This document shows, piece by piece, positions 45,217 to 53,985 of a DNA stretch of 64,000 nt. Under the pieces are notes generated by a model. It was not told the DNA's origin and searched no databases. It worked only from the letters and a program-made list of their open reading frames with translations. This DNA comes from Sphingobacteriales bacterium (lineage in GTDB: Bacteria > Bacteroidota > Bacteroidia > Chitinophagales > Chitinophagaceae): positions 28,349-92,348 of the forward strand of contig JAPLEF010000146.1 of assembly GCA_026391525.1 (NCBI GenBank), written 5' to 3'. The translations under genes and the position numbers were made by a program. Each line of letters opens with the position of its first letter. The first letter of the stretch is position 1.

Positions 45217-45999
45217 TTAACCCATCGACGCCGCAAGTATTTCTGCAATATCCAATACCTGAACCTCGGATTCTTTTTCTTTATTTTTAACGCCATCGGT
45301 TAGCATGGTATTGCAAAAGGGACAAGCCGCTGCAATCACACTGGCACCGGTTTCAAGGGCTTCATTGCTCCGTTCGATATTCACCCTTTGATCGCCTTTT
45401 TCTTCTTCTTTAAACATTTGGGCACCACCGGCACCACAACATAAACCATTGCTACGGCAACGTTTCATTTCCACCAGGGCTACATCCAAAGCTTCCAATA
45501 CCTTCCTTGGGGCTTCATAAATGCCATTTGCACGGCCGAGGTAGCAACTGTCGTGATAAGTGATTTTTTTACCTTTGAATGTTCCACCGCCGGTTAATTT
45601 GATTCGGCCTTCATCAATCAGTTGCTGCAGATAGCTGGCATGGTGCATCACTTCATAACTTCCACCTAAAACAGGATATTCGTTCTGAAAAATATTAAAG
45701 CAATGCGGACAGGTAGTAACGATTTTCTTGATCCCATAGCCATTCAACACCTGAATGTTCTGGTAAGCCATCATCTGGAACATGAATTCATTTCCGGCTC
45801 TTCGCGCAGGATCGCCTGTACACATCTCTTCCTTCCCCAATATGGCATATTTAATACCAACAGTATTGAGAATTGTGGCAAAAGCCCTTGTGATTTTTTG
45901 GGCACGCTGATCGAAACTTCCTGCACAACCCACCCAAAACAGTACTTCCGGTTGTTCGCCACTGGCCATCATTTCAGCCATTGTTGGTACATGCATCAT
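45217..45999 (-). CDS. CCG-domain (HdrB-like) Fe-S protein
   Basis: The 260-residue protein (ATG at 45999, MMHVPTMAEM; a longer start at 46029 is possible) has two CCG-type motifs: VTTCPHCFNIF..EY and GLCCGAGGAQMFKEE..., plus the first VGCAGSFDQRA. These bind non-cubane or [4Fe-4S] clusters, as in heterodisulfide reductase subunit B and LutA-like proteins. It is the usual partner of a membrane Fe-S oxidoreductase such as the one at 52.7-54.0 kb, here 6.7 kb away. Substrate unknown. Confidence 0.9.
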   Translation of the reverse strand: MMHVPTMAEMMASGEQPEVLFWVGCAGSFDQRAQKITRAFATILNTVGIKYAILGKEEMCTGDPARRAGNEFMFQMMAYQNIQVLNGYGIKKIVTTCPHCFNIFQNEYPVLGGSYEVMHHASYLQQLIDEGRIKLTGGGTFKGKKITYHDSCYLGRANGIYEAPRKVLEALDVALVEMKRCRSNGLCCGAGGAQMFKEEEKGDQRVNIERSNEALETGASVIAAACPFCNTMLTDGVKNKEKESEVQVLDIAEILAASMG

Positions 46000-46081
46000 T
46001 ATCGGTTTGAATAACAAAGTAAACAACATTTTATCATTGATGTTTGTTCCATTACATTTAATTTCACAATTTTAGCGACTA

Positions 46082-47131
46082 TTGAAAAAACTTATCCATA
46101 ACATAACGCATTGGGAAGCATGGCCTTTCAAACTGATTTATGCTCCTTTATCACTAATATGGATTCATTATGCCATTCGTTCGAGGGCATTATGGTTTTT
46201 CACGCCAAGCAATCCTAAATTAACTTTCGGGGGCATGGATGGTGAGCCAAAAAAAGAGATGTACGACCTGTTGCCCAAATCGTATTATCCGCCTACTTTT
46301 ATCAACCATCCTACCGAAAATTTCGATGTGCTGGCCGAACGCTTGCTGAAATCAGGTATCCGTTTCCCGCTCATAGTAAAACCCGAAGTTGGTGGGCAGG
46401 GCATTTTATTCCGCAAAATTGATAACGAAGCTCAATTACGCAAATATCACCATCAGGTGCCGGTAGAATATATGGTTCAGGAAATGCTGCAATATCCCAT
46501 CGAACTTAGTGTGTTTTATATCCGCCATCCCGAGGAAAGTACCGGAAGGATCACGGGATTTTTACATAAGATTCCTTTACGGGTTATGGGGGATGGAAAG
46601 CATACCCTTGAAGCACTGGTTCAACATCACCCCAAAGCTGCCAAAAGAAAAGAGGAATTATACAACAAGCACAAAGCCATTTGGCATCATATCGTACCCG
46701 AAGGGAAAGCGGTTATCCTCAGTTATGCGGCTAACCATAATCGGGGTGCCCATTTTATAGATTTGAAAGAGCAGATAGACCCGGCATTAGTAAAGATTTT
46801 CGATCAGATCAGTTTCAGCATCAATGATTTTTTTTATGGCCGTTACGATATCATGTGCCAAAGTGTGGAAGCACTAAAAGCCGGTCGAGATTTTGCCATC
46901 CTCGAGTACAATGGATGTGGTGCCGAACCGAACCATATTTACGATACCGGCTATACGCTTTTAGCTGCCTACCGCGAAATCCTCATGCATTGGAAAGCGC
47001 TATTTCATATCAGCAGGTTCAATGCCCGCAAAGGAGTGAAGCCATGGCCGTTCATGAAAGGCTTGCGTTTTCAATACAAAACAAAAGCGTTATTCAGGGT
47101 GATGAAGGAAGCCGATAAGCAAATGGCCTGA
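46082..47131 (+). CDS. ATP-grasp superfamily protein, unknown substrate
   Basis: The 349-residue protein begins with a TTG (46082, giving MKKLIHNITHW); no upstream ATG in frame is suitable. ATP-grasp features: RFPLIVKPEVGGQGILFRKI (ATP-binding lysine), MVQEMLQYPIELSVFYIRH, and GRYDIMCQS with a metal-binding loop LEYNGCGAEPNHIYD. It resembles D-alanine:D-alanine ligase-like carboxylate-amine ligases but lacks their N-terminal domain; the substrate is unknown. It is convergent with and adjoins the FAD oxidoreductase gene directly, and may belong to the polyketide block. Confidence 0.78.
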   Translation: MKKLIHNITHWEAWPFKLIYAPLSLIWIHYAIRSRALWFFTPSNPKLTFGGMDGEPKKEMYDLLPKSYYPPTFINHPTENFDVLAERLLKSGIRFPLIVKPEVGGQGILFRKIDNEAQLRKYHHQVPVEYMVQEMLQYPIELSVFYIRHPEESTGRITGFLHKIPLRVMGDGKHTLEALVQHHPKAAKRKEELYNKHKAIWHHIVPEGKAVILSYAANHNRGAHFIDLKEQIDPALVKIFDQISFSINDFFYGRYDIMCQSVEALKAGRDFAILEYNGCGAEPNHIYDTGYTLLAAYREILMHWKALFHISRFNARKGVKPWPFMKGLRFQYKTKALFRVMKEADKQMA

Positions 47132-48271
47132 TCAAAATGGATTACCATGCGTTTGGCGGATAAGCCATTGGGAAAGGTTAGGTGTTTTTTTCATCATCCA
47201 TAAGAAAATATTGGTTGTAGTTGGTTTACCAAATACCCGCTGTATCAGCCTTCCGGTAACAAGCCTCCCGGCAAACAGTTGCTTCCATTGCTTTTGATAG
47301 CGTTTTTCCATTTCAACTCGGCTTATTTTTTTTTCAAGAAAATCTTCCACTACCGCAACTGCTAATTTACCAGAATGCATGGCCATGCTCATTCCATTGC
47401 CACTTAACGGAGCTATCAATCCGGCCGCATCGCCTAGCATCAACACATGATTTTCCACCTGCGTTTTCTTGTTGAAGGAAACCTGCGAGATGGTTATCGG
47501 CTGCTCGTAAAAAGACTGACGTTCGCTGATTATTTTTTCGAGATGAGGGTTTTTAGATAAGATTTCCCTTTCCATTGTTTCGATAGAATTACCACTTCGT
47601 TTTAAGTTTTCGGCTGTAGTAAGATAACAAAGGCAATACCGATCGCCCTCAATTTTAGAAAGGCCGCAATAGCCATCACTGAAATTATGCAATGCAATCT
47701 GATCAGTATTAAAATGCCCGGCTATATGATATTTTACACCGATAAAATGATTGAGCGGATTTGGTTTTTTGAGGATGAATGGCCTCTTCCATATCCGGTC
47801 GAGATTGCTTCTTTTGCCATAACTCCCGCAACAACAAGTGCAGGTAAATACTCCTGCCGAACTGTTGATGGTAAACTGTTTTCCGTCAAATGCAACGGAT
47901 TCTACTTTTGCAGGATTCATTACTATAACGCCATTTTTTTTCGCTATATGCATTAGGGTTTCATCCAGCAGGTAACGGCTGATTCCAAAGCCGCCGAGGG
48001 GTAAATCCTGCTCCAGTGTAATACCTATAGGGGCAGTCACCAGCAACTTTTTGATGCGGGGCAACTGCATATCTGCAAGGGGTAGTCCCAGGCGAACCAA
48101 ATAATCCCAACTCTCCATACTGATATATTCGCCGCAAACCTTATGAAAGGGATAGGTTTCTTTTTCAAATAACAGGATGCGGTAGCCGCTTTTGGCGAGA
48201 TTGATAGCCGCTGTCAGTCCTGCTAATCCACCACCGATAAAAGCACAATCATATGTATCTACCTTACTCAT
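47132..48271 (-). CDS. FAD-dependent oxidoreductase of the type III PKS operon
   Basis: The 379-residue flavoprotein belongs to the geranylgeranyl-reductase / flavin monooxygenase group: FAD motif FIGGGLAGLTAAINLAKSG, the group marker FHKVCGEYISMESW, and LMLGDAAGLIAPLSGNGMSM. It could hydroxylate or dehydrogenate an aromatic polyketide. Oddly, the strand before GSYGKRSNLD reads TCTCCC, whereas frame +1 at the same bases reads ALVVA, as the fold needs; see findings. Its ATG overlaps the methyltransferase stop by 8 nt (ATGAGTAA). It is the last gene of the operon. Confidence 0.85.
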   Translation of the reverse strand: MSKVDTYDCAFIGGGLAGLTAAINLAKSGYRILLFEKETYPFHKVCGEYISMESWDYLVRLGLPLADMQLPRIKKLLVTAPIGITLEQDLPLGGFGISRYLLDETLMHIAKKNGVIVMNPAKVESVAFDGKQFTINSSAGVFTCTCCCGSYGKRSNLDRIWKRPFILKKPNPLNHFIGVKYHIAGHFNTDQIALHNFSDGYCGLSKIEGDRYCLCYLTTAENLKRSGNSIETMEREILSKNPHLEKIISERQSFYEQPITISQVSFNKKTQVENHVLMLGDAAGLIAPLSGNGMSMAMHSGKLAVAVVEDFLEKKISRVEMEKRYQKQWKQLFAGRLVTGRLIQRVFGKPTTTNIFLWMMKKTPNLSQWLIRQTHGNPF

Positions 48272-48971
48272 GCCGGCAAATGATTAAATAACGAAAAGCC
48301 CATTTCCATTGGATGGTATAATCCCGGATTCCTGCTCTTGCCAAAAGCGTTTCCCATTCCGTTTGATGAAATCCTCTGGCAACGGACAAAGGTGCATCGT
48401 GCTTTACAAGATATGAATTTGAGAATATTTTTGTGATAAGTTTGATCAATTGATAAGCAAGGGCATTTCGTTGTAAGTCGTTGATGAAAAAACCATGTAT
48501 GCTGTTTAAGCGCATCCATCGTAATATATCATGGATTCCGTTTTCATTAAAATGATGGCAGAAAAGAGAATTGAAGAGAATATCAGGCTTATCTCCTCCA
48601 AAATCAACCAGCTTATAATCGCTGCAGATCCATTGGGCAGGTAAGGAAGGGTATTGCTTTCTCGCATACAAGGTGCAGGTTTCTTTGATATCAATACCGG
48701 TGAACCTTAGCCGAAGTCCCGCTTTAAGTCCCCATGCATAAATAGCCTGTAAATTATCACCACCACCACAACCGATTTCTGCGATATGTATGGTTTTTCC
48801 TCTGGGTACTTTCGGAAGTAAACTGCGTATACCCGTTAAAGTGATGGCGTGCCCTCCCAGTAATGAATTAACGGTATTTAGTTCAGCCATATTCATACGG
48901 ATATCTTCGAAAGGGATGTTATCTCCATCGAGTAATTCCGGTTCATAAGATCGTGTGTTTAACTTACCCAT
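48264..48971 (-). CDS. SAM-dependent methyltransferase of the type III PKS operon
   Basis: The 235-residue protein has a class I methyltransferase fold with motif I in HIAEIGCGGGDNLQAIYAWG, then LRFTGIDIKET and DILFNSLFCHHF. The N-terminal part (YEPELLDGDNIPFEDIRMNMAELN) is characteristic of methyltransferases seen beside type III PKS genes in Bacteroidota. It likely methylates the polyketide ring or oxygen. Both ends overlap neighbours by 8 nt: its ATG overlaps the PKS stop (ATGGGTAA), and its stop overlaps the oxidoreductase ATG (ATGAGTAA). Confidence 0.85.
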   Translation of the reverse strand: MGKLNTRSYEPELLDGDNIPFEDIRMNMAELNTVNSLLGGHAITLTGIRSLLPKVPRGKTIHIAEIGCGGGDNLQAIYAWGLKAGLRLRFTGIDIKETCTLYARKQYPSLPAQWICSDYKLVDFGGDKPDILFNSLFCHHFNENGIHDILRWMRLNSIHGFFINDLQRNALAYQLIKLITKIFSNSYLVKHDAPLSVARGFHQTEWETLLARAGIRDYTIQWKWAFRYLIICRHE

Positions 48972-50070
48972 AGCTGGCAGTAAAGGTTTCCATGGTTAAT
49001 CCCGGACCAAAAGCAGCTCCGAATATATGAGGCGCATTTTCTTGTTGTGATGATTTGCAGGATTCAAAAATGCGTTGCAGCACAAAAAGGATGGTAGGGG
49101 AGCTCATGTTGCCAAAATCTTCCAGTACCTGATAGCTGTGTTGCAAGGAATTTTTTTCTAAATCAAGGGAGCCGGCGATATCATCCAGAATTTTTCGTCC
49201 CCCGGGATGAAAACACCAGTAACTAATATCCTGTTGGCTGAGCTGATGTGTTTCCAGTGCTGCCTCAACCAATTTAGCGATATCTTTTTTGATCAAATCA
49301 GGTACTTCACCGGTAAGGGTCATCAGGAAGCCGGTTGGAGAGATGTTCCAGGTCATTTCATCTTTCCCTGCAAATAATACCTTACTGTAAAAACCGTTAA
49401 GATTTATGCCCGGTTGTTGTGGTAACGAACTTTTAGCGGTAACCAGCACAGCCGCAGCACCGTCGCCAAAAAGTAATGATGAGGTGATATTATCCAACAG
49501 CGGCTCATGCTGAAAATGGATGGTGCAGAGTTCCACGCATACCAGCAATACCCTTGCATCGGGGTGGCGTGTACAAATGGCATCAGCCATTTTAAGGGCA
49601 TGGATGGCGGCATAACAGCCCATGAAATTAACGGAAGTACGCACCAGTGTTTCAGGTAACTGCAATGCTTCCATGATTTGAAGGTCTAAGCCCGGCGCAC
49701 TCATTCCGGTGCAACTTACAGTGATCAGGTGCGTGATTTCGTTTAAGGGTAGCTGTTGGTTCAAACAGTTTTCTATCGCTTCCAATGCCAGTGGACAAGC
49801 TTCCTTTTGATACCATTCCATTCGTTGGCTGATGCCGGGTACTTCGGCTTGGGTGCTTTCAAAAAAGCGGTTTTTTGCTTCATCACCGGCAACCGTAAAA
49901 TCAGGGATCACCGAATAACGGTAACGGATACCACTTTGACGGTATAAAAATGCCAATTTCCTTTTTTCAGTCTCATCTTGAGTGTAAACTTTTGAAGCAA
50001 AATGCATGAGGTCTTCCTGTTTATGGGCAAACCTTGGAACGCTGGTAGCTATAGAAATAATCTTACTCAC
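48964..50070 (-). CDS. Type III polyketide synthase (chalcone/stilbene synthase family)
   Basis: The 368-residue homodimeric-type enzyme would extend an acyl-CoA starter with malonyl-CoA and cyclise it into a pyrone, resorcinol or phloroglucinol. The catalytic triad is visible: Cys120 in TVSCTGMSAPGLD, His288 in CFHPGGRKIL and Asn321 in FGNMSSPTILFVL. The size fits (350-400). It starts with GTG, inside an 8-nt overlap with the UbiA stop (GTGAGTAA), and its stop overlaps the methyltransferase ATG (ATGGGTAA). Starter and product cannot be read from the sequence. Confidence 0.93.
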   Translation of the reverse strand: MSKIISIATSVPRFAHKQEDLMHFASKVYTQDETEKRKLAFLYRQSGIRYRYSVIPDFTVAGDEAKNRFFESTQAEVPGISQRMEWYQKEACPLALEAIENCLNQQLPLNEITHLITVSCTGMSAPGLDLQIMEALQLPETLVRTSVNFMGCYAAIHALKMADAICTRHPDARVLLVCVELCTIHFQHEPLLDNITSSLLFGDGAAAVLVTAKSSLPQQPGINLNGFYSKVLFAGKDEMTWNISPTGFLMTLTGEVPDLIKKDIAKLVEAALETHQLSQQDISYWCFHPGGRKILDDIAGSLDLEKNSLQHSYQVLEDFGNMSSPTILFVLQRIFESCKSSQQENAPHIFGAAFGPGLTMETFTASYG

Positions 50071-50926
50071 TGTTTGTATTGATCAATAAAAAAATAAAAC
50101 CTGCATTGCAACAAATGGAGGCAATGATGTTCATATATAAAGTATTGCGGTAACTGGCCGCTTTGATGTTCTTGAATACTTTAAAAAACCACCAAAGAAA
50201 ATAAACCGTTACCGGCAGCAGGAACAGCTGCAGGATAAAGAAGCCTGTAACCTTTCCTTGATTTGATAACAAAATCCAGAGCAACAAGTTGGCGGCAGTA
50301 AACAACAGGGCGGAAAAATAAAAAGTGCCTCTATAGCCCAACAGGTAACTGATGGTAGTAACGCCGTCTTCCCGGTCTTGCTGATGCTGATAAATTTGTG
50401 AAAGCGGATAAAAACTTCCGATCAGTAATGAGGCTGCTGCCATGCCTTGCCAGGGAATGTTAAGGGTTTTATCTGCCGAAGCGCCATGAAGTACCAGAAA
50501 AAAGGTAACTGCCCCCTGTAAAATCATCACCACAAGAAAACCCCATAATGGATATTTTTTTAACCGGATGCCTCTGTAACTGTAAGCACGGGATGCAAGT
50601 ATGTAAAGCAGGATGCCGGTTGCAAAAATCGTACTGATCCAAAGCGATAATATCACAGCGATCAGGTCCATTGCCAGGGTTACGAAATACAGTTGTTTTG
50701 AAGGCGGAAGCGGGTGCTCTATACCGCCGATACTTCCGGTATCGCGGTCCATATAACTATTATATCCATTGCTGGCCGGATAAACCAGTACATGCAGGAT
50801 GAAGCCTATCAGCAAAGCATCGTTTAGTTGGATGTTTGTACATTGGCTGAGTGCGAACCAATACACCGGCATGAGGAAGAGAGAGAAATGAAAACGAAGC
50901 AACTGGATGGTAGATGGTTCAAGCAT
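50063..50926 (-). CDS. UbiA-family prenyltransferase
   Basis: The 287-residue membrane protein has about eight hydrophobic segments. UbiA aspartate-rich motifs are altered but recognisable: NGYNSYMDRDTGS (first) and QHQQDREDGVTTI (second). These bind the Mg2+-diphosphate of a prenyl donor. It is the first gene of the operon, and could attach an isoprenoid to the polyketide or carry out another aromatic transfer. It ends 8 nt into the PKS gene and is divergent from the LysE-type gene, with 79 bp between starts. Confidence 0.86.
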   Translation of the reverse strand: MLEPSTIQLLRFHFSLFLMPVYWFALSQCTNIQLNDALLIGFILHVLVYPASNGYNSYMDRDTGSIGGIEHPLPPSKQLYFVTLAMDLIAVILSLWISTIFATGILLYILASRAYSYRGIRLKKYPLWGFLVVMILQGAVTFFLVLHGASADKTLNIPWQGMAAASLLIGSFYPLSQIYQHQQDREDGVTTISYLLGYRGTFYFSALLFTAANLLLWILLSNQGKVTGFFILQLFLLPVTVYFLWWFFKVFKNIKAASYRNTLYMNIIASICCNAGFIFLLINTNSE

Positions 50927-51005
50927 GGCATGTTGAAATTACGCAAACTGTGCTACACCTTGGCACATAGACGAAGATAAATCGGGTAAGCCCTTATCTT
51001 TGGAT

Positions 51006-51668
51006 ATGCCCAAATGGATAAACGTATTTTTATGGGGGTTGATGATCAGCTTTTTGGGATCATTACCTCTTGGAACACTGAATGTGGCGGCGATGCAGAT
51101 CGGCATACAGGAATCGGTGTTGCAGGCTTTGTATTTTTCCTTAGGATCATTGCTGGTAGAAATGATTTATGTGCGTTTATCGCTGGTTGGGATAGATTGG
51201 GTGCGCAAACAGGCCAAACTGATGAAGGCGATGGAATGGATCACTTTTTTTATCATCCTGGCTTTGGCGGTAGGCAGTTTTATTGCGGCTATGCATGAAG
51301 GAGGGGCGACAAAGAATGTATTGTTGAACAATAACATGCATCGTTTTTTATTGGGGATGTTGATGTGTGCCATCAATCCGGTACAGATACCGTTCTGGTT
51401 TGGATGGAGCACGGTGTTGTTTACCAAAAAGATATTATCTCCCGAACCGTTACAGTATAATTGCTATATCATCGGTATTGGCTTAGGCACTTTATTGGGC
51501 AATGCGGTTTTCATCTTTGGCGGAAAATACCTGGTAAGCCGTATCGCCAACAGTGAACAATACCTGAATTGGGTGATCGGTGGCATTTTTGCGCTTACCG
51601 CCATTTTGCAATTGATAAAAATCCTTCGTCATAAAGATGCGGCTGAGCAATTGAGAATTGAGAATTGA
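51006..51668 (+). CDS. LysE-family exporter
   Basis: The 220-residue inner-membrane protein has about six helices and LysE/RhtB-like patterns (SLPLGTLNVAAMQIGIQESV, LLVEMIYVRLSLVGIDWV, GMLMCAINPVQIPFW). It starts at the ATG at 51006 (the track start is a TTG at 51000). As the only transporter beside the polyketide operon and divergent to it, it may export a product or related metabolite; that is inference. The last codons (QLRIEN) lie in a run of 7-bp repeats. Confidence 0.83.
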   Translation: MPKWINVFLWGLMISFLGSLPLGTLNVAAMQIGIQESVLQALYFSLGSLLVEMIYVRLSLVGIDWVRKQAKLMKAMEWITFFIILALAVGSFIAAMHEGGATKNVLLNNNMHRFLLGMLMCAINPVQIPFWFGWSTVLFTKKILSPEPLQYNCYIIGIGLGTLLGNAVFIFGGKYLVSRIANSEQYLNWVIGGIFALTAILQLIKILRHKDAAEQLRIEN

Positions 51669-51680
51669 TAATGGATAATT
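51649..51680. repeat. Degenerate 7-bp tandem repeat
   Basis: Four units AATTGAG, AATTGAG, AATTGAT, AATGGAT plus AATT run over the end of the LysE-family gene and its stop codon. They match the perfect AATTGAT array at 52502-52560. Confidence 0.8.
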
Positions 51681-51763
51681 AGCCGAGGCTTGGTTTACCT
51701 GCCGAATTTGTATTTTCTGCGTCGGTGTGATCTCCCGACCAGCCGATTTTAGTATTTATGTTT

Positions 51764-52462
51764 CTACTGATCAAACATCGACAACCCATTTTGAACCTTA
51801 ACCCTTGACGGACCTGATTTGTTTCTTTTAAACAAAGGCTGCCACCTTTTAAGATTTATAAAAATCCATTGCAATTCACTTTCTTCAAAAGCTGTTAAAC
51901 TGTTTTGTTCTTTGGGAAATTGTACATCTGTAACCAGTCCGGAGCTATTAATGCTAACAATAGCAAAAACTTGTTTATTGAAACGCAAAGTAGATTGGGC
52001 ATATTCTGTAGCGAGTTCATCAATGAGTTTTTTTTGGGCAAAATAAAACACGGGTGGGAGTGTAAAATCACGATATCGGAGGTATCGTGAATATGCTTTG
52101 GGATATTGTGTGCTGTCGAATGTCAGTTCCTCAAGGTAGGTGCTGTCTGTAAGGTTTACGATACTCCCGGTAAACCGCTCAGAGCCTGCATAAAGTACAA
52201 ATGGATCATGGTCACCAACCGATGGCAGCCATACCATTGCCGTATCGTTGTTCTCGTAGATCACAACAGGACTCACTGGTACATCATTCTCATAAGTACA
52301 GCTCACTTTTATTTCACCATCCTGGTTGAAAAAAAGCCATTCACCCTGCTTGCGGTCTTCCTTATCGATGTAATTGATTTTATAGCCCTTCACTTTGATA
52401 AATGGTTGGCCTTGGGTAATAAACCCGAGGAGAAGAAGGAGTATGGTAAGTTTGGAGTTCAA
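51764..52462 (-). CDS. Secreted MORN / TonB-C-like protein
   Basis: The 232-residue protein starts with TTG (52462) and has a signal peptide (LTILLLLLGFITQGQ). Residues 25-75 contain a MORN/YwqK-type repeat (KQGEWLFFNQDGEIKVSCTYENDVPV). The C-terminal part (FNKQVFAIVSINSSGLVTDVQFPK, FINLKRWQPLFKRNKSGPSRVKV) resembles a TonB C-terminal (energy-transducer) fold without a membrane anchor. Similar proteins are common in Bacteroidota with no known role. A perfect 7-bp repeat array lies 40 bp upstream of its start. Confidence 0.75.
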   Translation of the reverse strand: MNSKLTILLLLLGFITQGQPFIKVKGYKINYIDKEDRKQGEWLFFNQDGEIKVSCTYENDVPVSPVVIYENNDTAMVWLPSVGDHDPFVLYAGSERFTGSIVNLTDSTYLEELTFDSTQYPKAYSRYLRYRDFTLPPVFYFAQKKLIDELATEYAQSTLRFNKQVFAIVSINSSGLVTDVQFPKEQNSLTAFEESELQWIFINLKRWQPLFKRNKSGPSRVKVQNGLSMFDQ

Positions 52463-52501
52463 GTGAGGAAGGCGAAAAATAATTTACAATTTACATTTTA
52501 C

Positions 52502-52560
52502 AATTGATAATTGATAATTGATAATTGATAATTGATAATTGATAATTGATAATTGATAAT
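52502..52560. repeat. Heptanucleotide tandem repeat (AATTGAT)8
   Basis: Eight perfect copies of AATTGAT (52502-52557) followed by AAT. It is preceded by A/T-rich variants (AATTTACA ATTTACATTTTAC). It lies 40 bp upstream of the 51764-52462 gene on the minus strand, within the likely promoter or leader region. The rest of this 215-bp gap (52561-52677) shows no gene. Confidence 0.95.
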
Positions 52561-52677
52561 GAATGATGAACAGGGAACAAGAAATATTGAAGTTTGGAAA
52601 TGCTATAACCTACTTTAGTGTTTTATGTTTTTGTATAAAATAAAACTTAGTGCCTTAGCGTCTTTGTGGCAAAATAC

Positions 52678-53985
52678 TTATGCATTCACCCAGGCATCTC
52701 TCTCATCAGGGCTTAATTTCCAGGGTGCGAAGTTATTCTCAATATTACTGAACATGCCGTTCCATTCCTGCGGTGCATTGCTGTCTTCCATGATCAGGCT
52801 CCTGCGGAGTTCGATGATGATATCGAGTGGATTGATACTAACCGGACAAGCCTCCACACAGGCATTACAGGTGGTGCAGGCACGTAGTTCTTCCACTGTA
52901 ATGTAATCGTTCAGTAGCGTCTTGCCGTCGCCGTTAAAGCTGCCGCCTTTGGGAATCTGACGGCCTACTTCTTCCAGCCGGTCGCGGGTATCCATCATGA
53001 TCTTACGAGGGGAAAGCAACTTTCCGGTTAAATTAGCCGGACAGGAAGCGGAACATCGTCCACATTCGGTGCAGCTATAGGCATCTAATAAGCTCTTCCA
53101 ACTCAAATCCATCACATCCTTTGCACCAAACTTCATCGGTTGCGCTTCACCGGTAGGTGCCAGTTCAGGATGCATCATATATTTCACTTCGTTCTGAACA
53201 GAAGGCATATTGTGCAATTGCCCTGCCGGTTGCAAACGCGCATAATATGCATTCGGGAAGGCCAGCATGATATGCAAATGCTTACTGTAGGGCAGATAAT
53301 TTAAAAAGGCAAAGATGCCGATGATATGCAGCCACCAACAGGTACGTTCGATAATGATCAGTGTAGATTGCGTCATCCCCGAAAAAAGCGGTGCTATCAT
53401 TCCTGAAAATATAAAATTTCCGGTATCGTGGTAATGTGCCGATCCCTGCAGTTGCAAAGCCCGGTCGGTAGCGTTCATAGTAAGGAATAAACTCATCAGG
53501 ATGATTTCCACAATCAATATATAATTGGCATCGGAACGGGGCCATCCGTTGAGATCTTTACTGATAAATCTTTTTAGCTTGATGATATTGCGGCGACAAA
53601 GAAAAACCACACAAACGGCAATCACGCCTATGGCAAGAATCTCAAAGAAATTGATGAGGAAGGTATAAAAACCACCCAGTGAAGAAAGGAAAAGGCGGTG
53701 CGTACCAAGCAGTCCATCTAACACAATCTCCAGCACTTCAATATTGATGATGATAAAACCCGCATAAATGATGAAATGCATTACAGCTACCAACGGATTG
53801 GCAAACATCTTGCGTTGCCCTAATGCCAAAAGCATCAGGTTCTTCCAACGGGCCGAAGGGTTATCGCTGAGGTCTTCTTGCCGTCCCAGAAAAATATTGC
53901 GCCTGATCTTTGCCGCTTTTCCTGCAAATAACCATACCGCCAAACCGCTCAGCAGTAGGAAGGCTGCCTGTTGTAGATACTGCAT
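52678..53985 (-). CDS. Membrane Fe-S oxidoreductase (NarI-like plus 4Fe-4S dicluster)
   Basis: The 435-residue protein has five or six membrane helices in residues 1-240 (AAFLLLSGLAVWLFAGKAA, AVMHFIIYAGFIIINIEVLEI) and, after these, a dicluster ferredoxin part: CTECGRCSASCPANLTG and CTTCNACVEACPVSINPLD, eight cysteines for two [4Fe-4S] clusters. The layout matches respiratory Fe-S proteins that pass electrons between quinone and a CCG subunit. The expected CCG partner (45.2-46.0 kb) is separate here. Substrate unknown. Confidence 0.92.
   Translation of the reverse strand: MQYLQQAAFLLLSGLAVWLFAGKAAKIRRNIFLGRQEDLSDNPSARWKNLMLLALGQRKMFANPLVAVMHFIIYAGFIIINIEVLEIVLDGLLGTHRLFLSSLGGFYTFLINFFEILAIGVIAVCVVFLCRRNIIKLKRFISKDLNGWPRSDANYILIVEIILMSLFLTMNATDRALQLQGSAHYHDTGNFIFSGMIAPLFSGMTQSTLIIIERTCWWLHIIGIFAFLNYLPYSKHLHIMLAFPNAYYARLQPAGQLHNMPSVQNEVKYMMHPELAPTGEAQPMKFGAKDVMDLSWKSLLDAYSCTECGRCSASCPANLTGKLLSPRKIMMDTRDRLEEVGRQIPKGGSFNGDGKTLLNDYITVEELRACTTCNACVEACPVSINPLDIIIELRRSLIMEDSNAPQEWNGMFSNIENNFAPWKLSPDERDAWVNA

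Follow-up and report, generated by a model that had tools for sequence, protein, structure and literature searches.

The 64,000-nucleotide stretch of contig JAPLEF010000146.1 (assembly GCA_026391525.1) analysed here, hereafter the window, belongs to a Ferruginibacter-like bacterium and carries four overlapping minus-strand genes, ubiA, pks, mt and fad, which constitute a standing cassette in Chitinophagaceae. Our favoured reading, to which we give a probability of about 60%, is that this cassette makes a decorated, probably isoprenoid-tagged phenolic or quinone membrane lipid. In the proposed pathway, an alkylresorcinol would most likely be built by the type III polyketide synthase (PKS), with its C152-H288-N321 triad, from malonyl-CoA and a fatty-acyl starter. 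Methylation of the ring or of a hydroxyl group would fall to the methyltransferase, and ring hydroxylation, yielding a hydroquinone or quinone, to the flavoprotein; UbiA would add the isoprenoid. The resulting membrane lipid, phenolic or quinone in nature, would resemble the products of the actinobacterial agq cluster. We infer the substrates, the products, the order of steps and the role of UbiA as an active prenyltransferase from the enzyme families and from known clusters. A first-pass annotation of the window had proposed that the operon makes an aromatic or alkyl polyketide that is methylated, oxidised and perhaps prenylated, and this is supported by the conserved gene order and by the gain and loss of the genes as a unit. 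The four genes lie where it placed them, and Pfam confirms their families, as follows.

ubiA, 50063-50926, minus strand: UbiA-superfamily membrane protein of 287 amino acids, probable prenyltransferase (Pfam PF01040, AlphaFold model, motif conservation)
pks, 48964-50070, minus strand: type III PKS of 368 amino acids with a GTG start (Pfam PF00195/PF02797, matches to type III PKSs in the PDB)
mt, 48264-48971, minus strand: class I S-adenosylmethionine-dependent methyltransferase of 235 amino acids (Pfam PF13649/PF08241)
fad, 47132-48271, minus strand: FAD-dependent monooxygenase or hydroxylase-like flavoprotein of 379 amino acids (FAD/NAD-binding Pfam families, AlphaFold model)

Conservation and co-inheritance of the cassette

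Of about 100 loci, which come largely from Chitinophagaceae, most have the gene order ubiA-pks-mt-fad. The relatives compared are mostly metagenome-assembled genomes, and sister loci are not independent of one another. Cultivated carriers of the cassette include Ferruginibacter paludis, Cnuella takakiae and a Chitinophaga species. A comparison of gene order in related genomes had been suggested as a check on the operon, and it shows an order conserved in dozens of genomes and a set that comes and goes as a unit. Within the window's genus, UbiA is present in 16 of 16 PKS-positive genomes tested as compared to 0 of 14 PKS-negative ones, and the FAD protein is likewise absent from all 14 of the latter; the cassette is thus acquired or lost as a whole. 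The pks-mt-fad order is retained in other Bacteroidota families, where ubiA lies divergently in six loci (L144, L146, L147, L149, L173 and L183) and after fad in another (L175), and hence the link of ubiA with the other three genes survives rearrangement. Homologues of pks, mt and fad are also clustered on plasmids of Microvirga, Novosphingobium, Psychrobacter and Deinococcus, on which no UbiA homologues were found. A neighbourhood survey revealed no further operon gene recurring at most loci.

Enzymes of the cassette and alternative readings

The window PKS matches the N- and C-terminal chalcone/stilbene synthase domains with 97.9 and 86.8 bits (cut-off 27, Pfam). Its catalytic triad had been assigned to Cys120, His288 and Asn321, of which the histidine and asparagine are right and the cysteine is not: C120 lies within an SCTGM motif and C152 within (N)FMGC, both are conserved in the PKS family, and the catalytic cysteine is C152, the only one of the two to align with that of FMGC in solved type III PKSs. 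The family alignment shows no variation at C152, H288 or N321, and the Cys-His-Asn triad is intact. The branch leading to the window PKS is long (0.71 versus a median of 0.24), and the protein deviates at several family-conserved positions such as Y255E, S245P and E81S, with the catalytic residues intact. The methyltransferase is of class I (Methyltransf_25/11, with a PRK06202-like match below cut-off), and its homologues adjoin type III PKS genes in other phyla too. UbiA scores 58.4 bits against PF01040 (cut-off 34.2, E 8.6e-16), and its AlphaFold model, with a predicted local distance difference test score (pLDDT) of 95, has the A. fulgidus UbiA 4tq4 as its nearest fold (E 1.4e-06) and also matches 4od5 (template modelling score about 0.7), such that the UbiA proteins of both A. 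fulgidus and A. pernix are matched. The flavoprotein model (pLDDT 89) has FasV, 3-hydroxybenzoate 6-hydroxylase and PltA as nearest folds, with pyrrole halogenases and UbiI also close. 3-Hydroxybenzoate 6-hydroxylase is a para-hydroxylase of phenols.

Several observations weigh against the proposed pathway, and the first concerns the aspartate motifs of UbiA, which are non-canonical. They read NSYMDRD (N56, D60, D62) and YQHxxDxxDG (Q180, D184, D187), and family-wide NxxxDxD and QxxxDxxD replace the canonical NxxxDxxxD and DxxxD, each motif thus being without one canonical Asp. Own-genome paralogues of UbiA read NDYFDRQID (L114) and NRYLDRHID (L112). With one Asp missing per motif, prenyl transfer by UbiA is likely but not assured. 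The alternative that UbiA is no classical Mg-dependent prenyltransferase, using another donor such as a different diphosphate-linked lipid, having another metal arrangement or serving as a non-catalytic membrane anchor for the three soluble enzymes, is in our view unlikely. It would explain why the third Asp of motif 1 is variable and the first Asp of motif 2 is Gln in essentially the whole family with N56, D60, D62, Q180, D184 and D187 kept, and it agrees with a family profile that finds one solved UbiA only, and weakly. However, the predicted fold matches substrate-bound UbiA structures, binding of Mg-diphosphate would still be possible through N56, D60, D62, D184 and D187, and the UbiA-like AgqD O-prenylates an alkyl-methoxyhydroquinone (PMC3227686) and so offers a precedent for prenylating such substrates.

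The second group of adverse observations concerns the PKS: 4b0n, its nearest solved relative by sequence, is only distantly related, and the cassette neighbourhoods showed no recurrent gene for starter loading (acyl carrier protein, ligase). Since a PDB search gave pks18, 4b0n and also chalcone- and stilbene-forming enzymes as solved relatives, the PKS might make alkylpyrones or another aromatic instead of alkylresorcinols. We regard this as decidedly unlikely, given that mt-fad partners accompany alkylresorcinol-making type III PKSs in Planctomycetota and cyanobacteria (PMC10896814), and that ring hydroxylation would suit a resorcinol better than a pyrone.

Finally, the flavoprotein is also similar to halogenases and geranylgeranyl reductases. 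Among NCBIfam models it matches the geranylgeranyl reductase superfamily best, though below cut-off, and its profile matches include FADH2 halogenases, so that it could reduce the prenyl chain, a step that dihydrogeranyl products call for, or act as a halogenase rather than as a ring hydroxylase. Against this, several loci (L161, L162, L163, L172, L182 and others) and the plasmids combine a fad-like gene with pks and mt, with no ubiA found close to them, and therefore the substrate of the flavoprotein need not be prenylated; moreover, the closest folds include the phenol para-hydroxylase and UbiI, and SrsC provides a precedent for hydroxylation (PMC6669644). Such a reductase or halogenase accordingly has little probability in our estimate, and ring hydroxylation within the proposed pathway is preferred.

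The pks start codon and the gene overlaps

Among 91 distinct loci, the PKS start is TTG in 82, GTG in 4 and ATG in 5, these assignments resting on alignment, with L105 counted as GTG by homology. The window GTG (50068-50070) is hence one of the rare departures from TTG. Most PKS frames are closed by a stop a few codons upstream and offer no other possible start. At the same loci mt starts with ATG in 92 of 99 cases, and PKS homologues from other Bacteroidota families use ATG in 34 of 38. On the tree, for the 72 loci whose PKS opens with M-S-K-I, the start codon changed 4 times (3 loci to GTG, 1 to ATG), and the Ile4 codon of the same loci changed 29 times, 13 of these within ATT/ATA alone, the same T/A class. 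UUG-to-AUG switches are favoured genome-wide (PMC5622118), and retention of TTG despite this preference suggests that selection maintains a weak PKS start. TTG is also kept in most loci without gene overlap and is thus not a by-product of the overlap. The weak TTG/GTG start probably keeps PKS output low, and initiation may perhaps be coupled to translation of ubiA. A GGAGGT-like Shine-Dalgarno sequence lies directly before TTG in L020, L051, L060, L077, L083, L101, L102 and L106 and is missing from others; where present, it could compensate for the weak start. A fuller proposal, which we advance tentatively and consider possible though improbable, holds that TTG is a selected throttle on PKS dosage, possibly tied to the position behind ubiA, and that UbiA forms a separate clade, its metal site altered, which attaches an isoprenoid or some other group to an undescribed Bacteroidota quinone lipid.

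The genes of the window overlap by exactly 8 nucleotides at each junction, as originally reported:

ubiA/pks overlap, 50063-50070, minus strand: 8 nucleotides, GTGAGTAA
pks/mt overlap, 48964-48971, minus strand: 8 nucleotides, ATGGGTAA
mt/fad overlap, 48264-48271, minus strand: 8 nucleotides, ATGAGTAA

The significance that had been ascribed to these identical lengths does not survive comparison, since the pattern is not conserved across loci. The three overlaps of the window invite the explanation of a selected device coupling translation at every junction, which is highly improbable. The 8/8/8 pattern occurs in 1 of 86 complete loci, that of the window; simple arithmetic from the marginal frequencies predicts about 6 such triples in 86 loci, and hence one observed is no excess. 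The ubiA/pks junction overlaps by 4 nucleotides in 41 loci and by 8 in 41, the pks/mt junction by 8 in 47 and by 4 in 13, and the mt/fad junction by 8 in 34 and by 4 in 17, the remainder being gaps or other lengths in each case. Changes of overlap class at these three junctions number at least 14, 8 and 18, respectively, on the PKS tree. Overlaps of 2 or 5 nucleotides are impossible in this phase, as they would require a stop codon ending in AT, GT or TT and none exists (PMC2542354); the shortest possible overlap is therefore 8, necessarily of the form xTGNN plus a stop. In addition, the common pks start TTGAGTAA contains stops in both other frames (TGA, TAA), so that whichever frame ubiA occupies, its overlap is 4 or 8 nucleotides from the pks start alone. 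No excess RNA structure was observed at the ubiA/pks junction (mean z +0.48). The flanking-gene background comprises 15 overlaps, 7 of 4 nucleotides and 1 of 8, too few for statistics. Thus, the 8/8/8 match is a coincidence, and the lengths of the overlaps are a side effect of tight operon packing. A Bacteroidota-type promoter TAnnTTTG was not found upstream of ubiA on that strand.

Genomic site and known parallels

The cassette region is flanked by a CCG-domain Fe-S gene (45217-46029) and a 4Fe-4S gene (52678-53985), and across species of the genus the interval 45217-53985 is a variable site that is empty, contains lysE only, contains lysE with an ATP-grasp gene, or contains these together with the cassette. 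In five cassette-less genomes of the same genus (G011, G012, G025, G054 and G056) lysE is retained between both Fe-S genes, adjoining the ATP-grasp gene in four of them. In G045, a sixth such genome, the Fe-S genes follow each other directly. The earlier suggestion that the LysE-type protein exports the product loses its support through the retention of lysE without the cassette, by which LysE and ATP-grasp are site neighbours and not cassette parts; the ATP-grasp gene was considered as a cassette member and rejected on the same ground. The ATP-grasp-like protein (46082-47131) has no Pfam match and is weakly similar to cyanophycin synthetase and carbamoyl-phosphate synthase-like models.

Alongside the known agq, hidABC, srsABC and planctomycete clusters, the cassette is a further variant. 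The agq cluster of Actinoplanes missouriensis (Awakawa 2011, as cited), described here through citing papers, is like it in combining a type III PKS with a UbiA-type enzyme and unlike it in being actinobacterial, from another phylum. According to those papers its products are alkyl-O-dihydrogeranyl-methoxyhydroquinones (PMC10896814, PMC3227686), and the alkylresorcinols made by AgqA are subsequently prenylated and hydroxylated (PMC10896814). Co-occurrence of type III PKS, methyltransferase, flavin hydroxylase and UbiA as one unit follows the agq type, as far as the citing papers give the gene content of agq. Methyltransferase, FAD oxidoreductase and type III PKS are likewise combined in hidABC (hierridin, cyanobacteria) and in planctomycete mt-fdo-t3pks operons, whose order, in contrast, is mt-fad-pks and for which the paper mentions no UbiA; PKSs of the planctomycete operons make alkylresorcinols (PMC10896814). 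As this type requires, mt and fad homologues lie beside type III PKS genes across Bacteroidota and other phyla, hid being likened by its description. In srsABC of Streptomyces griseus, SrsB methylates and SrsC hydroxylates alkylresorcinols, giving the same trio of type III PKS, methyltransferase and monooxygenase; however, the SrsB type is annotated as an isoprenylcysteine carboxyl methyltransferase and no UbiA is present (PMC6669644), unlike the cassette, whose class I methyltransferase belongs to Methyltransf_25/11. The loseolamycin cluster of Micromonospora endolithica, also actinobacterial, has UbiA, methyltransferase and type III PKS genes close together but an acyl-CoA dehydrogenase gene beside the PKS in place of the FAD hydroxylase (PMC7587189). 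The mycobacterial polyketide quinones (Anand 2015, as cited) are type III PKS-derived alkylquinones described in the citing text as electron carriers (PMC10896814), and offer a functional analogy only.

The open-licence literature searched names no UbiA-type III PKS cluster from Chitinophagaceae or other Bacteroidota, and the open-licence papers found assign no product to a ubiA-pks-mt-fad cassette. The view that this arrangement has no assigned product therefore holds, in these papers, for the cassette itself and needs qualifying for its enzyme content, in which the agq type III PKS/UbiA-like cluster of another phylum, likened to it by enzymes and not by gene order, does have an assigned product in the sources that cite it. 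Type III PKSs related to that of the window are widespread in Bacteroidota, being matched in 184 of 393 genomes and 92 of 179 genera, yet the cassette is without an assigned product in the papers found. If only some members of a genus make a quinone-like lipid, its presence or absence would be directly accessible to lipidomics, and the pks gene offers a clean natural test of whether selection can maintain weak start codons.

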